From Taklimakanibacter deserti (GTDB lineage Bacteria; Pseudomonadota; Alphaproteobacteria; Rhizobiales; Aestuariivirgaceae), in assembly GCA_003574785.1 (NCBI GenBank), contig QORU01000029.1, positions 1-48,588 of the forward strand: DNA of 48,588 nucleotides, in the 5' to 3' direction. A program made the translations under genes and the position numbers. Under the pieces are notes generated by a model. That model did no database searches. It saw only the letters and a program-made list of their open reading frames with translations, and was not told where the DNA came from. Below, piece by piece: positions 2,489-15,407 of this stretch (position 1 is the first letter of the stretch; each line of letters starts with the position of its first letter).

Positions 2489-3901
2489 TCAATTGGGCAG
2501 CGCGTCCTTGTAGATATTGCCATCCTTCATGATGATCGGAAAGTTTTTGGGGTCGGCAACGAGCTCGATATTTTCCAGAGGATTGCCATCGACCAGCAGC
2601 AGGTCTGCAAGGGCGCCTTCTTCCACGACACCGAGCTTGCCGGGATAGGGATTGCGCTTGCCGGACAGCGCCAGCAGGTCGGCATTTGTCGATGTCGCCA
2701 TGATCAGGACCTCGGCGGGTGTGTACCAGCGGGCAAGCGAGGCCAGGATGGCTCCTTGTTGCTGCGCCAGCGCTTGCGAGAACAGCACATCGGTGCCCCA
2801 TGCCGTCTTGAGCTTGTATTTCTTCGCCAACTCGTAGGTCCTGGCTATGCCGGGCCAGACCTCTTCCGCCTTGGCGCGCTGGACCGAACCAACCGGAAAG
2901 CCAAGCTTCAAGGCTTCGGGGAGCGGCTGCATGCTCAGCCAAATCCCCTTCTCGGCCATCAGTTTGGCGGTTGCTTCGTCCATCAACATGCCGTGTTCGA
3001 TGCATTTCACACCGGCGGCAATGGACCGCTGGATCGCAGCCGGCGTGAAGGCATGCGCGGCGACGTAAGTACCCCAGTTCTCGGCCGCTTCGACCGCGGC
3101 GCGCAGCTCGGGCTCGGTGAAGGTGCTCACGTCGATTGGACTGAAGGGTGACGACACGCCGCCGCCCGCCGTCAGCTTGACCTGGGAGGCGCCCTGCATG
3201 AGCTGTTCGCGCGTGCGCACGCGCACCTCGTCAGGGGTGTCCGCAACCATGGCGCCACCGACCACCTCCATGCGGGACAGCGTGCCGATCGCCCGCGGCA
3301 GTTCGGTCAGCTGACGGAAATCCCCGTGCCCGCTCGTGATCGTGATCACGGCGCCGGACGGATAGATGCGCGGGCCCTTGGCGATGCCCGCATCGATGGC
3401 GCGCTTGAGACCGAATACCGGCCCGCCCACGTCGCGAACGGTGGTGAAGCCGCGCATCAGGGTGTCCGCCGCTTCGGCGCCGGCCACGAGATTGTTGTAA
3501 CCGACATCACCGAACGACTCTGCCGGGGTCGGGCGCACCAGCATCGCGTGCCAATGCGCATCGATGAGGCCGGGCATCAGCACGCGCCCGTCCGTCTTGA
3601 TAATGCGGACGTCGGCGCCCGCCTCGACCGTGATCGGGTCCACCGAAATGCGCGCGATGGTGTTCCCTCTGACCAGCACATTGGAGGGCGGCGACAAGGC
3701 GGCGCTCTTGCCGTCGAATATGCGGACGTTCTCAAAAAGCGTCGCCGCGCCGGGCGGCGCCTCGGTTTGGGCAAGGCTCGCCTGCCCAAACCCGGCCAAG
3801 AGCAGCGCAACCACCAACGATCGACAGCGCATGAGTCTGAACGGCTGTAGCATTGTCAGACCAGTCAATTTGCTCCGCCAATCCGCTATCTGACAGCCCA
3901 T
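2489..3901 (-). CDS. exported amidohydrolase family protein (imidazolonepropionase/prolidase-like)
   Basis: A 470-residue metal-dependent hydrolase of the amidohydrolase superfamily. The metal-binding D-A-H-W-H motif (GLIDAHWHA) follows the N-terminal beta-sandwich. The bridging-lysine segment VKLTAGGG, then AAHAFT, CIEHG and the catalytic-Asp segment WGTDVLF, are all present in the expected order. The C-terminal part (GKLGVVEEGALADLLLVDGNPLENI) closes the sandwich domain. A signal peptide is evident around residues 24-45 (RSLVVALLLAGFGQASLAQ), so the enzyme is probably periplasmic. GGAG lies 6 bases before ATG 3901, which supports this start, but it leaves a long stretch before the hydrophobic core; Met17 (3853) or Met24 (3832) would give a more standard signal. 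The substrate is unknown; relatives cleave X-Pro dipeptides or cyclic amides. Confidence 0.85.
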   Translation of the reverse strand: MGCQIADWRSKLTGLTMLQPFRLMRCRSLVVALLLAGFGQASLAQTEAPPGAATLFENVRIFDGKSAALSPPSNVLVRGNTIARISVDPITVEAGADVRIIKTDGRVLMPGLIDAHWHAMLVRPTPAESFGDVGYNNLVAGAEAADTLMRGFTTVRDVGGPVFGLKRAIDAGIAKGPRIYPSGAVITITSGHGDFRQLTELPRAIGTLSRMEVVGGAMVADTPDEVRVRTREQLMQGASQVKLTAGGGVSSPFSPIDVSTFTEPELRAAVEAAENWGTYVAAHAFTPAAIQRSIAAGVKCIEHGMLMDEATAKLMAEKGIWLSMQPLPEALKLGFPVGSVQRAKAEEVWPGIARTYELAKKYKLKTAWGTDVLFSQALAQQQGAILASLARWYTPAEVLIMATSTNADLLALSGKRNPYPGKLGVVEEGALADLLLVDGNPLENIELVADPKNFPIIMKDGNIYKDALPN

Positions 3902-6942: not shown

Positions 6943-6967
6943 GGAACATGGCGGCGAGCTGGGCGTT
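6943..6967 (+). promoter_or_regulatory. EcfG-type general stress promoter (GGAAC-N16-CGTT)
   Basis: GGAAC (6943-6947) and CGTT (6964-6967) are separated by exactly 16 bases. This is the consensus for the alphaproteobacterial general-stress sigma factor EcfG (SigT/RpoE2). The predicted transcription start falls at or just before ATG 6976, so the downstream mRNA would be leaderless or would use the internal GTG at 7021. Confidence 0.6.
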
Positions 6968-7247: not shown

Positions 7248-7273
7248 GGAACCGGGGTGCCTTTCTCGGCGTT
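7248..7273 (+). promoter_or_regulatory. EcfG-type general stress promoter (GGAAC-N17-CGTT)
   Basis: GGAAC (7248-7252), a 17-base spacer, then CGTT (7270-7273). This is the second match to the EcfG consensus within 330 bp. It lies 26 bases upstream of ATG 7299 and could also drive the permuted ROK gene at 7523. Confidence 0.55.
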
Positions 7274-7298: not shown

Positions 7299-7487
7299 AT
7301 GAAGGACAAGCGAAATCTCTCGCCGAAGACTCTCAGATCCGATTCGCGCATCGGGCGCGCCAGGAAGCTCGCGGATGCTTCTCTGCCGCTCGTGGCCGAC
7401 CTCTATCTGGCCCATCTGCGGGCCTGCGCGACAAATCGGGATGACGAGACGAAGCGAAGGCGCCGCAAGAAGCCCGCTTCGCAATGA
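7299..7487 (+). CDS. small very basic hypothetical protein, predicted EcfG target
   Basis: A 62-residue protein, MKDKRNLSPKTLRSDSRIGR at the N terminus and a lysine/arginine tail (KRRRRKKPASQ) at the C terminus. The middle (ARKLADASLPLVADLYLAHL) could form one helix. The net charge is strongly positive, so nucleic-acid or membrane association is possible. It sits directly behind an EcfG-type promoter and 35 bp upstream of the permuted ROK gene, on the same strand. No family was recognised. Confidence 0.5.
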   Translation: MKDKRNLSPKTLRSDSRIGRARKLADASLPLVADLYLAHLRACATNRDDETKRRRRKKPASQ

Positions 7488-7522: not shown

Positions 7523-8596
7523 ATGAGCAAGACCGATGCCGCTCAGAGCGATCTTGACCTGCCGGCGCATGGCGCAGCGACCCTGCCCGGCGTCACGGTC
7601 GACAGCTACAATATCGAGATCGAGGACGATGATGGATTCGTCGGCGATCAGGCCAGCAAGCGCGCCTTCTGGGCGCTCATGGACAAATGGCGCAAGCCAT
7701 GGCGAAAAACCGGCAAGGACCCGCTGGGCAAGGAACCGAGCGAGAAGATCGGCAGGCAGAAGCTCGCCGAGCTGCTCGCCGATGGGGATCCCGAGGCGGC
7801 GGCAGTGGTGGCGAGCGCCATCGACGATTACGCCCACGGGCTCGCCAGTGTCATTCGCCGCTATTCGCGCTTGAAGGAATGGCGCAAGACTGAATACCTC
7901 GTTATCGGCGGCGGCTTCAGCGCCAGCCGTCTCGGAAAGCTCGCCATCGCCAGGACGGAGCTCTTGCTGCGCGAAGACGGCTTCAATCTCGATCTCGACA
8001 TCATCCACAACGATCCCGACGAGGCAGGCCTCATCGGTGCGGTTCACCTGCTGCCGACCTGGATGCTCAGAGGGCATGATGCGATGCTGGCCATCGATAT
8101 CGGCGGCACGAATATCCGCGCCGGTGTGGTCAGGTTCGGGAAGCGCCCGGCCGATCTGGCGAAAGCGCGCGTGGTCAAGGTCGAGCGGTGGCGCCACGGC
8201 GATGAGGACGTGACGCGCGATCAGGCGATCAGGAAGCTGATCGGGATGCTTCGCAAGCTCTTGCGTTGGGCCAGGAGCGAAACTATCGAGCTCGCGCCGC
8301 TCATCGGCGTGGCCTGTCCGGGTCTCATCGCGGAAGACGGAGCGATCACGCGCGGCGGACAGAACCTGCCCGGCAATTGGGAGAGCAGCCGCTTCAATTT
8401 GCCCTCCGTCATTCGCGCCGGCATTCCGCAGATCGGGAACGAGGAGAGCCTGGTGGTCATGCACAACGACGCCGTGGTGCAGGGCCTGAGCGAGCTGCCC
8501 CGCGCCCGCAACCGGAAAAGATGGGGCGTCCTCACCATCGGTACCGGTCTCGGCAATGCGCGCTACACCAACCGCAAACCGAATGGAGGCAAATGA
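7523..8596 (+). CDS. ROK-fold protein with circularly permuted motif order
   Basis: A 357-residue protein of the sugar-kinase/actin ATPase fold, probably an ATP-dependent glucokinase-like enzyme. In ordinary ROK kinases the phosphate-1 motif DIGGT is N-terminal, and the adenosine motif (GGG...) and the GLIGA helix are C-terminal. Here VIGGG (127-131) and DEAGLIGA (166-173) come first. They are followed by AIDIGGTNIRAG (190-201), GVACPG (262-267), NLPGNW (281-286), HNDA (314-317, the likely catalytic Asp) and IGTGLGNA (339-346), and the protein ends soon after. The ROK zinc-site motif (GHxxV...CxCGxxGCxE) is absent. I recognise similar proteins in other Rhizobiales, annotated simply as ROK family. 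ATG 7523 follows ACCGTC without a strong SD. The stop overlaps the next gene. Confidence 0.8.
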   Translation: MSKTDAAQSDLDLPAHGAATLPGVTVDSYNIEIEDDDGFVGDQASKRAFWALMDKWRKPWRKTGKDPLGKEPSEKIGRQKLAELLADGDPEAAAVVASAIDDYAHGLASVIRRYSRLKEWRKTEYLVIGGGFSASRLGKLAIARTELLLREDGFNLDLDIIHNDPDEAGLIGAVHLLPTWMLRGHDAMLAIDIGGTNIRAGVVRFGKRPADLAKARVVKVERWRHGDEDVTRDQAIRKLIGMLRKLLRWARSETIELAPLIGVACPGLIAEDGAITRGGQNLPGNWESSRFNLPSVIRAGIPQIGNEESLVVMHNDAVVQGLSELPRARNRKRWGVLTIGTGLGNARYTNRKPNGGK

Positions 8597-8895: not shown

Positions 8896-8973
8896 CGGCG
8901 ATTGGCACGGCGCCTGGACCTATCTATAGTCCGCGGGCTCGAAACCACCTTCCACTTCTGGATTGTCATTCGC

Positions 8974-10122
8974 GTGATCACGCGGCTTGCCATATCGGGT
9001 TACCGGTCGCTGCGCGACGTCACGCTGGCGCTCGGCCGGCTGAATATCGTCACCGGCGCCAATGGCAGCGGCAAGTCGAGCCTCTATCGCGCCTTGCGTC
9101 TGTTGTCGGATGTGGCGCAAGGGCGCGTGGTGGCCTCGCTCGCCGCCGAAGGCGGTATATCATCGACCCTGTGGGCGGGGCCGGAGAAATTCAGCCGCGA
9201 GATGAAGAGCGGCCTGCAGCCGGTCCAGGGCACGCGCCGCTCAGGGCCGATCAGCCTCAGGCTCGGCTTCGCTTCCACCGACTATGGCTATGCCATCGAT
9301 CTCGGTCTGCCGCAGCCCTCCATGTCGCGCTTCTCGCTCGATCCTGTAATCAAGGTCGAGGCGGTGTGGACAGGCGAGCTTCTCGGCCGCGCCAATCTCA
9401 TTGCCGAGCGCCGCGGCCCCGTTACCCGCTTGCGCCAGGCGAAGACCGGCGTTTGGCACGAGAGCGTCGATCATCTGTCGGCCTTTGACAGCGTGATGAC
9501 CCATCGGGCCGATCCGGTCGATGGCTGGGAGCTGCTCCTGCTGCGCGAAAAGATGCGCCAGTGGCGCTTCTACGACAATCTGCGCACCGATCGCGAGGCG
9601 CCGGCGCGCCGGCCGCAGGTCGGAACCTTCACACCGGTCCTGGCCGGCGACGGCAGCGACATCGGTGCCGCCCTCCAGACGATCATCGAGGTCGGCGACG
9701 GACGTGCCCTCGATGATGCGGTCGCCGACGCCTTCGACGGCGCGAGCCTTGCCGTCAATGACCGTTTCGAGGTGGAGATGAAGCAGCACGGGCTGTTGCG
9801 CGAGCTGAATGTCGCGGAGCTCTCGGAAGGCACGCTCAGATACATCCTCCTCATCGCCGCTCTCCTGTCGCCGCGCCCGCCCGAGCTCATGATCCTCAAC
9901 GAGCCCGAAGCGAGCCTGCACCCGGACCTTCTGGCACCCCTCGCCCGCCTGGTGACGAAGGCTGCCGAGCGTTGCCAGATCATCATCGTCTCGCATTCGC
10001 CACAGCTCGTCGCGGCCCTCGACCGGCATGCCGAAAGCTGGCTCATCCGCCTCGAAAAGGAGCTCGGCGAGACGATCGTGCGCGACCGGCCGGCGCCGCC
10101 CTGGAAATGGCCGTCGCGCTGA
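8974..10122 (+). CDS. AAA family ATPase (RecF/OLD-like, AAA_21)
   Basis: A 382-residue ATPase of the SMC/RecF-like group. From GTG 8974 the protein begins MITRLAISGYRSLRDVTLAL, the classic opening strand of RecF-type ATPases, followed by Walker A GANGSGKSS (residues 28-36). The ABC-type signature LSEGTLRY, the Walker B segment LMILNEPEASLHP and the switch IIIVSHSPQLV are near the C terminus. The Walker B aspartate is replaced by Asn, while the catalytic Glu is kept; this variant is common in the subgroup. There is no TOPRIM nuclease domain, so it is not a complete OLD protein. It lies 78 bp after the coupled small gene. Its role is unknown; relatives act in DNA repair, phage defence or transport. 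Confidence 0.8.
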   Translation: MITRLAISGYRSLRDVTLALGRLNIVTGANGSGKSSLYRALRLLSDVAQGRVVASLAAEGGISSTLWAGPEKFSREMKSGLQPVQGTRRSGPISLRLGFASTDYGYAIDLGLPQPSMSRFSLDPVIKVEAVWTGELLGRANLIAERRGPVTRLRQAKTGVWHESVDHLSAFDSVMTHRADPVDGWELLLLREKMRQWRFYDNLRTDREAPARRPQVGTFTPVLAGDGSDIGAALQTIIEVGDGRALDDAVADAFDGASLAVNDRFEVEMKQHGLLRELNVAELSEGTLRYILLIAALLSPRPPELMILNEPEASLHPDLLAPLARLVTKAAERCQIIIVSHSPQLVAALDRHAESWLIRLEKELGETIVRDRPAPPWKWPSR

Positions 10123-11283: not shown

Positions 11284-12150
11284 ATGCTGGAATTCGATCT
11301 CACCTCCCTCAAGCCCATCATCGTCGCTCATTTTCCCGGTCTTGCGCCGGCTCGTTTCTCCCTCCTGCCCAAGGGCTGGCATTCGACCGCCGTCGATGTC
11401 GACAACACATGGGTTTTCAAGTTCCCGCGTGGCGCTGATGCCGAAGCCGCCTTGCGGACCGAAGCCAGCCTGCTCGCCGCTCTCCGGCCCCATGTCGCGA
11501 TGCCGGTGCCCGAGCTTTCGCTCATCGAGGGGCCGCCCCTCTTCTCGAGGCACAGGAAGCTCAAGGGCGAGCAGCTGACCGCCGCGCGCTATGCGCATCT
11601 GCCCGAAGCGGCGCGCCGGCGCCTTGCCGCCGCCCTCGCCCGCTTCTATGCCGATCTGCATGCGCTCGACGAGGCACGGATGAAGGCGGCCGGTGCTGCT
11701 CCCCTCCGTCCCTGGCGCGATGCCGATGACATTGGCCGCAAGATCTGGCCGCTCTTGCCGGCGAGCTTGCGTTCCTACGCCGAGCGCACACTCATGGCCT
11801 GGCAGCGGTTGGAACCTGACCCATACGGGATCATCTACGGCTTCTTCGACGGCCATGGCTGGAACATGGCCTTCGACAACGAAGCGCAACGGCTCAACGG
11901 CGTCTATGATTTCGCCGATTCAGGCTTGGGTCAGCTGCATCAGGATTTCATCTATTCGAACTTCATCGCGCGCGACCTGACCTCGCGCGTCATTGCGGAT
12001 TATGAGCGCATCACCGGCAAGCTTCTTGACCGCGAGCGTATCGCGCTGCTTACCGCAGTCCATCGCCTGTGGGAACTGGCCGAGGTCGCCGATGATCCGA
12101 CGCACATAGCCTTGATGCTGAGGCATGTCGTCGAATGGGCACAGGACTGA
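11284..12150 (+). CDS. aminoglycoside phosphotransferase (APH)-fold kinase
   Basis: A 288-residue protein-kinase-like phosphotransferase. The ATP-binding lysine is likely Lys46 in TWVFKFPRG, with Glu60 in LRTEASLL as its partner. The Brenner-type catalytic loop is IIYGFFDGHGWNM. Asp189 and Asn194 keep the D-x4-N spacing of HGDLHPGN, but the usual His-Gly before Asp is Phe-Phe. YDFADSG (208-213) supplies the metal-binding Asp209. The substrate is not predictable; family members phosphorylate aminoglycosides, choline, homoserine, fructosamines and others. No clear SD precedes ATG 11284, and a terminator lies directly upstream. Confidence 0.8.
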   Translation: MLEFDLTSLKPIIVAHFPGLAPARFSLLPKGWHSTAVDVDNTWVFKFPRGADAEAALRTEASLLAALRPHVAMPVPELSLIEGPPLFSRHRKLKGEQLTAARYAHLPEAARRRLAAALARFYADLHALDEARMKAAGAAPLRPWRDADDIGRKIWPLLPASLRSYAERTLMAWQRLEPDPYGIIYGFFDGHGWNMAFDNEAQRLNGVYDFADSGLGQLHQDFIYSNFIARDLTSRVIADYERITGKLLDRERIALLTAVHRLWELAEVADDPTHIALMLRHVVEWAQD

Positions 12151-14198: not shown

Positions 14199-15407
14199 GT
14201 GAAGCTCCCCCTCCTCTCTCTGTCTGCCGCCCTTTTCCTCGCCTCGTCGTCGGCTTTCGCCGCCGAATGCACGACCCCGACGAACCCGTCAAAATTCTCG
14301 AGTTGGCTTTCCGGCGTCAAGAAAGAAGCCGCCGGCATGGGCATTTCCAAACGGGCCATCTCGGTGCTCGACGGCATGACCTACGACCCCTCGGTCATCA
14401 AGCGCGATCGGGCGCAGAGCGTCTTCTCCTTGACTTTCCTCGATTTTCAGGCCCGCCTGATCTCCGCCAACCGGATGAACAAGGGCAAAGCCCTCATGCA
14501 GCAGCATGCCGGCGTCTTCAAGAAGGTGGAGAGCCGCTATGGGGTGCCAGCGGCGGTCATCACCGCTTTCTGGGGCCTGGAGACCGATTTCGGCGGCTAT
14601 ATGGGCGATTTCCACACCATCCGGTCGCTGGCGACGCTTTCATATGACTGCCGCCGTCCGGAGAAATTCCGGCCGCAGGTCTTCGCCGCCCTGCAGATCA
14701 TCGACCGGGGCGACATGACCGAAGACGACATGGTCGGCGCCTGGGCCGGCGAGATCGGCCAAGTGCAGTTCCTGCCCGCCGATTTCCTCGAAAGCGGCGT
14801 CGATGCCGATGGCGACGGCCGTGTCGACCTCAAGCGCAGCATTCCCGACATTTTGATGTCGACGGGAAGCCTTCTGACCACGCATGGCTGGCAGGCCAAT
14901 CAGCCTTGGCTGCAGGAAGTCGCCGTGCCCGAGGATATGCCCTGGGAGGAGGCCGATATCGCCATCCAGCATCCCCGCGCGCAATGGGCGAAATGGGGCG
15001 TGAAGCTCGCCTCCGGAAAGGCGCTCAAGGCCGATAAGGCGCAAGCCTCGCTGCTCTTGCCCATGGGACGCCATGGCCCCGCTTTCCTGGCCTATCCGAA
15101 CTTCACCAAGGTCTATCTCAAATGGAACGAGTCGCTCATCTATTCGACGACGGCCGCCTATTTCGCCACGCGCCTTGCCGGAGCTCCCCCTGTCAGCAAG
15201 GGCAATGGCCCGGTCAACGCGCTCGACTATAACCAGATCATGGAACTGCAGAAAATCCTGACGCGCATGGGCTATGATGTCGGCAAGATCGACGGCAAGC
15301 TCGGCTCGCAGTCGCGCGCCGCGGTCAAGAGCGTACAGATCAAATTCGGCATGCCGGCCGACTCCTGGCCGACGACCGAGCTTCTCAACCGCTTGCGCAA
15401 CAGCTGA
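14199..15407 (+). CDS. lytic murein transglycosylase, MltB family
   Basis: A 402-residue exported enzyme that cleaves peptidoglycan glycan strands with formation of 1,6-anhydro-MurNAc. The signal peptide KLPLLSLSAALFLASSSAFA ends before AECTTP; no lipobox is evident. The MltB-type domain spans about residues 30-330, with the catalytic glutamate Glu128 in the FWGLETDFGG motif and further family segments GEIGQVQFLPADF and HPRAQWAKWG. A C-terminal peptidoglycan-binding domain (about 340-400: LQKILTRMGYDVGKIDGKLG) follows. The GTG start at 14199 is supported by the signal peptide. It lies 18 bp upstream of the Ldh2-type gene, but a functional link is not obvious. Confidence 0.9.
   Translation: MKLPLLSLSAALFLASSSAFAAECTTPTNPSKFSSWLSGVKKEAAGMGISKRAISVLDGMTYDPSVIKRDRAQSVFSLTFLDFQARLISANRMNKGKALMQQHAGVFKKVESRYGVPAAVITAFWGLETDFGGYMGDFHTIRSLATLSYDCRRPEKFRPQVFAALQIIDRGDMTEDDMVGAWAGEIGQVQFLPADFLESGVDADGDGRVDLKRSIPDILMSTGSLLTTHGWQANQPWLQEVAVPEDMPWEEADIAIQHPRAQWAKWGVKLASGKALKADKAQASLLLPMGRHGPAFLAYPNFTKVYLKWNESLIYSTTAAYFATRLAGAPPVSKGNGPVNALDYNQIMELQKILTRMGYDVGKIDGKLGSQSRAAVKSVQIKFGMPADSWPTTELLNRLRNS

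Follow-up and report, generated by a model that had tools for sequence, protein, structure and literature searches.

The 48,588-nucleotide stretch of contig QORU01000029.1 from Taklimakanibacter deserti (called here, as a whole, the window) encodes a 357-residue protein, P0001, which very probably represents the ROK sugar-kinase fold (actin/hexokinase-like) in a naturally occurring, circularly permuted form, and most likely acts as a cytoplasmic hexose kinase. In this protein, the part corresponding to the C-terminal half of an ordinary ROK kinase precedes the part corresponding to the N-terminal half (Table 1). The permuted order is a trait of a conserved protein family and not a one-off, and the swap of the halves is seen both in profile-profile comparisons and in predicted structures.

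Motif order

The colinear order of ROK kinases, with the phosphate-1 motif first and the GGG and AGLIGA motifs last, is not found in P0001, whose full-length match to them requires a rotation of the chain. In the translation of the open reading frame (ORF), VIGGG, DEAGLIGA, AIDIGGTNIRAG and IGTGLGNA all lie at the residues given in the original prediction, which had been made from the sequence of the window. The position of the C-half motifs ahead of the phosphate-1 motif, on which that prediction was built, is not due to chance, as all but two of 214 aligned relatives share it. The family alignment, to which all counts per 214 rows refer, consists of P0001, the other 119 listed matches of a protein search and 94 proteins from genomic loci, and includes duplicates between loci and genomes. 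The 212 rows carry GGG (129-131), DxGG (192-195), Asp316 and GTG (340-342) in the permuted order; of the two that do not, one stops ahead of GTG (L090) and the other has DIGDT (L057). A narrower regular expression finds the order in 175 rows, and 37 of its 39 misses satisfy the column test. Moreover, AGLIG and DxGGTN are separated by a constant spacing of 30 residues in 211 rows.

A second DIGGT-like motif near residue 25, which had been considered as a possible occupant of the phosphate-1 site, does not exist in P0001, and a hidden DxGGT at this place is ruled out for the family, given that a DxGGT-like motif appears within residues 1-185 in 0 of 214 rows. The original prediction had also placed the end of the chain just after IGTGLGNA. 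The motif is indeed near the end, but not directly at it, since 11 further residues follow, with a predicted strand at 343-350, and two of the residues located after the motif, Asn350 and Arg351, are conserved in 203 and 210 rows, respectively.

Profile and structural evidence for the permutation

The circular permutation proposed from the motifs is borne out by the rotation required in profile-profile comparisons and by predicted structures whose halves lie swapped on a solved ROK kinase. The profile of ordinary ROKs was built from 32 sequences (30 sampled ROKs plus those of loci L081 and L099) and split behind the phosphate-2 strand; the E-values of these comparisons refer to a single pair of profiles. 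Family residues 1-186 match the ROK C-half with an E-value of 4.9e-7 versus 0.22 for the N-half, while residues 184-357 match the N-half with 8.5e-9 versus 0.17 for the C-half. When the family is rotated at residue 187, the best of 21 rotations tried, 289 of 299 ROK columns are aligned with a score of 79.0 and an E-value of 1.8e-10, as opposed to 98 columns and a score of 47.2 in the native order. In the predicted structure, residues 186-351 fall on residues 2-142 of the Streptomyces griseus glucokinase 3vgk, and residues 24-183 on its residues 143-313.

The Pfam family ROK (PF00480) recognizes P0001 with 24.8 bits, above its gathering cut-off of 22.9, and 49 of 49 family members match it at an E-value of 0.01 or better (A1). 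The best stretch covers only half of the profile (residues 189-356 on positions 2-147 of 294), and no Pfam match of its own was found for residues 16-185. When a rotated P0001 was used as query against 150 genomes of the order, all 20 genomes that matched did so as two pieces meeting near the junction in swapped order; neither a match running through the junction nor a colinear version of the permuted family was found in these 150 genomes.

Two results weigh against the permutation. The shallower profile of the P0122 type, that is, of polyphosphate-glucokinase-like ROKs, does not significantly match the first half (hhalign E-value 0.08), and the Pfam score of the rotated single sequence rises by only 0.8 bits. 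A rotation scan with the same P0122-type profile in global mode was also ambiguous, with summed probabilities of 126.9 at rotation 174-180, 83.8 unrotated and up to 117.2 at other rotations, the best by score being rotation 48. This ambiguity is resolved by the result obtained with the ordinary-ROK profile.

The new termini

The large domain contains the new ends, which lie between the pair of phosphate-2 strands (predicted at 333-339 and 343-350) and the ExGH stretch. The original prediction, which had located the break near the ExGH motif and the zinc-site loop and considered both to be missing, was about right on the site and right on the zinc cysteines; the ExGH histidine, for its part, seems to be kept as His16. 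In hhalign comparisons with ordinary ROKs, the LPAH of P0001 falls on ExGH, with His16 on the His and Leu13 on the Glu, and with the P0122-type profile His16 falls on the second His of ELAHH. The MAFFT alignment disagrees with hhalign, as it shifts this stretch a few columns away from ExGH. His16, conserved in 212 rows, is thus only the probable ExGH histidine; column 13 holds Leu (132 rows) or Ile (72), and column 12 is mixed.

The zinc motif CxCGxxGC is absent from P0001, which has no Cys in residues 1-185; the same region contains no Cys in 77 of 214 rows and three or more in 2 of 214. Zinc cysteines are likewise missing from the colinear polyphosphate-glucokinase-type ROKs P0122, 3lm2 and 1woq, and therefore their loss was not necessarily caused by the permutation. 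After the ExGH stretch, the zinc loop is replaced by a nearly invariant run (Asn30, Glu32, Asp35, Gly38, Phe39, Gly41, and Asp42), in which Asp42 or Glu32 may have taken over sugar contacts. The proximity of the new ends to the sugar side of the large domain could alter hinge motion and substrate choice.

Active site and proposed mechanism

A study on the ROK kinase NagK (PubMed Central article PMC10031466) assigns metal binding to D6, phosphate binding to T10 and T132, and sugar binding to S78, N104, D105, E154, H157, and D187, D105 being the catalytic base. According to the same source, the D105N and D6N/A substitutions abolish activity and E154Q makes the enzyme much slower. The counterparts of these residues in P0001 are Asp192, Thr196, Thr341, Asn315, Asp316 and probably His16. 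In the family alignment, Asp192 and Asp316 are present in 214 of 214 rows and Asn315 in 213, while Thr341 is found in 213 rows plus one gap. Because of the invariance of both Asp residues and the near-invariance of Asn315 and Thr341, P0001 is likely an active ATP-dependent sugar kinase, and the simplest reading would be that of a functional sugar kinase whose sugar site is modified.

In the proposed arrangement, a linker of only a few residues would connect the former C-terminal helix, which ends around residue 182, with the strand that opens the former N-half at 187. The chain is predicted to form a two-domain cleft, where the phosphate-1 residues Asp192 and Thr196, the Asn315-Asp316 pair, the phosphate-2 residue Thr341 and the adenosine wall made of GGG and AGLIGA could meet as they do in ordinary ROK kinases. 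Asp316 would deprotonate a sugar hydroxyl for the attack on the terminal phosphate of the donor, presumably Mg-ATP (or polyphosphate).

Table 1. Features of the permuted kinase gene and of its upstream region (positions in the window)
Feature	Position	Strand	Remarks
Permuted ROK-type kinase gene (P0001, 357 aa)	7523..8596	+	ORF with ATG start
Counterpart of the C-half of ordinary ROK kinases, residues 1-186	7523..8080	+	
His16, probable counterpart of the ExGH histidine, close behind the new N-terminus	7568..7570	+	212/214 rows; supported by hhalign, not by MAFFT
VIGGG, adenosine-side motif, residues 127-131	7901..7915	+	
DEAGLIGA, final motif of ordinary ROKs, residues 166-173	8018..8041	+	
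Joint of the former C- and N-termini, around residues 179-186	8057..8080	+	Constant spacing in 211/214 rows
Counterpart of the N-half of ordinary ROK kinases, residues 186-357	8078..8593	+	
AIDIGGTNIRAG, phosphate-1 motif, residues 190-201	8090..8125	+	
NLPGNW, sugar-side motif, residues 281-286	8363..8380	+	Every column in 213 or 214 of 214 rows
Asn315-Asp316, counterparts of the sugar-binding Asn and the catalytic-base Asp	8465..8470	+	213 and 214 of 214 rows
IGTGLGNA, phosphate-2 motif, residues 339-346, close to the new C-terminus	8537..8560	+	
EcfG-type general-stress promoter-like site, GGAAC-N17-CGTT	7248..7273	+	275 bp upstream of the start; putative link with the kinase
EcfG-type strict match	6943-6967	+	580 bp upstream of the kinase start

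Comparison with colinear sugar kinases

P0001 shares with ordinary ROK proteins (PF00480, with representatives such as 3vgk, the ManNAc kinase of GNE 2yhw and NagK) the DxGGT, ND, GTG, GGG, and AGLIGA motifs, as well as, by prediction, the two-domain fold. It differs from them in its swapped halves, the lack of zinc cysteines, a Leu or Ile at the Glu column of ExGH and extra residues ahead of the GGG strand. The family is homologous to ROK kinases and probably works like one, yet it falls outside the canonical definition of a colinear, zinc-bearing ROK.

The polyphosphate-glucokinase-like ROKs from Hyphomicrobium and relatives (P0122; nearest NCBIfam model NF045942; solved structures 1woq and 3lm2) resemble P0001 in the absence of zinc cysteines, and P0122 also has the ND-x-x-VQGL signature and a Y-N...GD stretch behind the ExGH region. 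In contrast to P0001, P0122 is colinear, has only 255 residues with a short C-terminal half and belongs to a separate group in the tree. P0001 itself reaches 20.3 bits with the polyphosphate--glucose phosphotransferase model NF045942, far under its cut-off of 250. A colinear 255-residue protein of this type is encoded in Hyphomicrobium facile (locus L082, 1195-1962, minus strand), scoring 113 bits with NF045942 and thus also failing the cut-off; it lies downstream of a same-strand ORF whose product we take to resemble 6-phosphogluconolactonase.

Glucokinases of PF02685 have the superfamily and the phosphate motifs in common with ROK-type proteins. Unlike P0001, they are colinear, and P0001 scores 11.9 bits with this family, below the gathering cut-off of 22.1. 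The N-terminal helix-turn-helix (HTH) domain of ROK transcriptional repressors of the NagC/Mlc type is not found either: no HTH family appears among the Pfam matches of P0001 up to an E-value of 10, and its first half corresponds to the ROK C-half.

Distribution and annotation of the family

In a protein search with P0001, 7,999 of the 8,000 scored candidates (those sharing most words with the query) fell below an E-value of 0.001. The 120 relatives listed show 60-100% identity over 94-100% of the query, while some of the other 7,879 matches may be ordinary ROKs aligned over one half. A scan of genome contigs revealed a relative in 573 of the 597 stretches listed. Among the best 80 of these 573, nearly all titles name Hyphomicrobiales genera, including Hyphomicrobium, Bradyrhizobium, Rhodoplanes, Rhodopseudomonas, Devosia, and others, with one stretch titled only Proteobacteria (L002) and another only Alphaproteobacteria (L067). 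In whole-genome samples drawn around H. facile, which overlap, matches below 1e-90 were found in 12 of 289 genomes of the class (14 with any match at 0.001) and in 22 of 398 of the phylum (36 with any match); in the order sample, 20 of 150 genomes were positive.

Family residues 16-185 are also encoded in 204 plasmid records, mostly from Rhizobium (111), Sinorhizobium (79), and Shinella (9), with one record each from Bradyrhizobium, Methylobacterium, Phyllobacterium, Ensifer, and Roseateles; the whole protein matches 206 records, two of them over less than 80% of its length. In line with the original prediction, which described similar rhizobial proteins as labelled only ROK family, annotated plasmid copies are mostly named "ROK family protein" and some "hypothetical protein", and many copies have no listed annotation.

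Two partial copies were also observed. A 111-codon ORF in L101 (genome G284) holds only the C-terminal part of a permuted-kinase relative (match to residues 256-352) and is apparently a gene remnant; a full-length match lies elsewhere in that genome. In genome G472, a piece of contig C151 (167216-167335) matches kinase residues 5-44 only, and a full-length match is located roughly 4 kb away.

Origin of the permuted branch

In a tree of 69 rows (32 ordinary ROKs, 23 permuted proteins after rotation, 12 P0122-like proteins and two solved ones; the root serves only for drawing), a branch with support of 100/100 separates the permuted proteins from the rest. Their stem is long, at 3.2 changes per column, and the bootstrap values are not fully settled. 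A single old permutation event is favoured by these data. An origin from the P0122 family had been suspected because of the common ND-x-x-VQGL signature but is not supported by the tree, which separates the permuted rows, on their long stem, from the sampled colinear ROKs. Circular permutants usually arise through duplication, fusion, and trimming.

Alternative explanations

One alternative, a gene fusion or misassembly that placed the end of one ROK gene in front of the start of a second, would account for the partial ROK resemblance of each half, and some genomes do have neighbouring ROK genes. Nevertheless, the junction spacing is constant in 211 of 214 rows across numerous independent contigs as well as chromosomes and complete plasmids, so that an artefact is rejected and this explanation is scarcely credible. 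It is also highly improbable, if slightly less so, that P0001 is a colinear actin-fold protein whose pseudo-twofold architecture only mimics a swap. Actin, MreB, and CoaX (type III pantothenate kinase) give no sequence match among the hits of the family, and the colinear fit is read as the internal two-fold likeness of the fold.

A more serious, though still unlikely, possibility is that the permuted ROK fold has been kept while the kinase role was lost, the protein being a sensor of sugars or nucleotides or having another ATPase role in stress. This would fit the Leu or Ile found at the ExGH Glu column and the absence of zinc cysteines, together with the lack of a pathway operon (no neighbour cluster exceeds 7 of 29 loci). 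On the other hand, Asp192, Asn315, Asp316, Thr341, and NLPGNW show little or no variation, whereas a protein that acted only as a sensor should have lost them in places; in addition, there is no DNA-binding domain, save a weak HTH_63 match in 1 of 49 members.

Genomic context and a possible stress promoter

No conserved operon was found among 29 loci. The biggest neighbour clusters (7 and 6 loci) resemble debris of overlapping ORFs beside or across the kinase gene, and clusters of 5 loci mirror the synteny of Bradyrhizobium and Rhodopseudomonas, where the neighbours are presumably rplU-rpmA-obg. The trehalose-phosphatase gene otsB is divergent from, and adjoins, the kinase gene in L118 and L151, both on Rhizobium plasmids. 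These are two of six annotated plasmid loci examined; the same arrangement is not seen in L116, L117, L119 or, by annotation, L152.

The general-stress motif of EcfG in Rhizobium etli and Sphingopyxis is given as GGAAC-N16-CGTT in the main texts of PMC3892343 and PMC7083833. Strict matches to GGAAC-N16/17-CGTT occur only twice in the whole window on both strands, and both are upstream of the kinase. The nearer site directly precedes a 62-codon ORF (7299-7487), which, as a guess, could form one transcript with the kinase.

A motif GGAAC-N15..18-GTT within 250 bp upstream is present in 25 of 112 kinase loci versus 39 of 2,240 random stretches from those loci. When 820 bp of 108 non-redundant loci were considered, 22 of 32 forward-strand matches lay 51-100 bp upstream, versus 2 of 11 reverse-strand matches at equal distance. 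Of the 55 kinase loci not named Bradyrhizobium, 24 have the EcfG motif within 160 bp, as do 2 of the 55 from Bradyrhizobium, compared with 0 of 33 for ordinary ROKs; the Fisher p-value of 1.1e-6 (24/55 versus 0/33) is only a guide, because related loci are not independent. The link with the stress promoter is thus lacking in the majority of Bradyrhizobium copies and in 31 of the 55 other loci, the one in the window included. Neither "ROK family" (or "ROK") nor "glucokinase" occurs in the main texts of the EcfG papers PMC3892343, PMC6180224, PMC7083833, and PMC3616915. One paper, PMC11387232, mentions both EcfG and the ROK family, and its passages on them draw no link between the two.

Downstream of the kinase, the window encodes an AAA_21-type ATPase (8902-10122, plus strand). 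Other genes encode a Glycosyl hydrolase 25 protein (1053-1853) and an amidohydrolase (2489-3901) on the minus strand, and an APH-type phosphotransferase (11284-12150) and an SLT_2 transglycosylase (14199-15407) on the plus strand.

Implications

A description of a permuted ROK kinase was not found among the papers listed by full-text searches of open-licence PubMed Central articles, in line with the earlier impression that the permutation is not commonly noted. Circular permutation and the ROK family appear together in one paper, PMC1976428, the latter only as a test set, and PMC2213659 reports a segment swap in an ADP-dependent glucokinase, which has a different fold. The text available from the 2025 review of the glucose-kinase superfamily (PMC12696579) contains no word starting with "permut", and that of the 2005 kinase classification (PMC1079889) allows circular permutation inside fold groups in general.

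The label "ROK family protein", derived from half a profile, hides this rearrangement, and domain-coverage filters may call the protein truncated. Natural circular permutants provide a direct test of how connectivity relates to folding and catalysis, and in this family many members can be compared with colinear kin from the same bacterial order. It is somewhat more probable than its contrary that a separate branch of sugar kinases goes back to one ancient permutation, works with swapped halves, extends across Hyphomicrobiales (plus one Roseateles plasmid) and in many lineages serves as an effector of the EcfG/RpoE2 general stress response. If so, the branch would comprise hundreds, probably thousands, of members, perhaps phosphorylating glucose from trehalose or other stress glycans, and the link with the stress promoter would give these kinases a role that can be tested in rhizobia and related bacteria.
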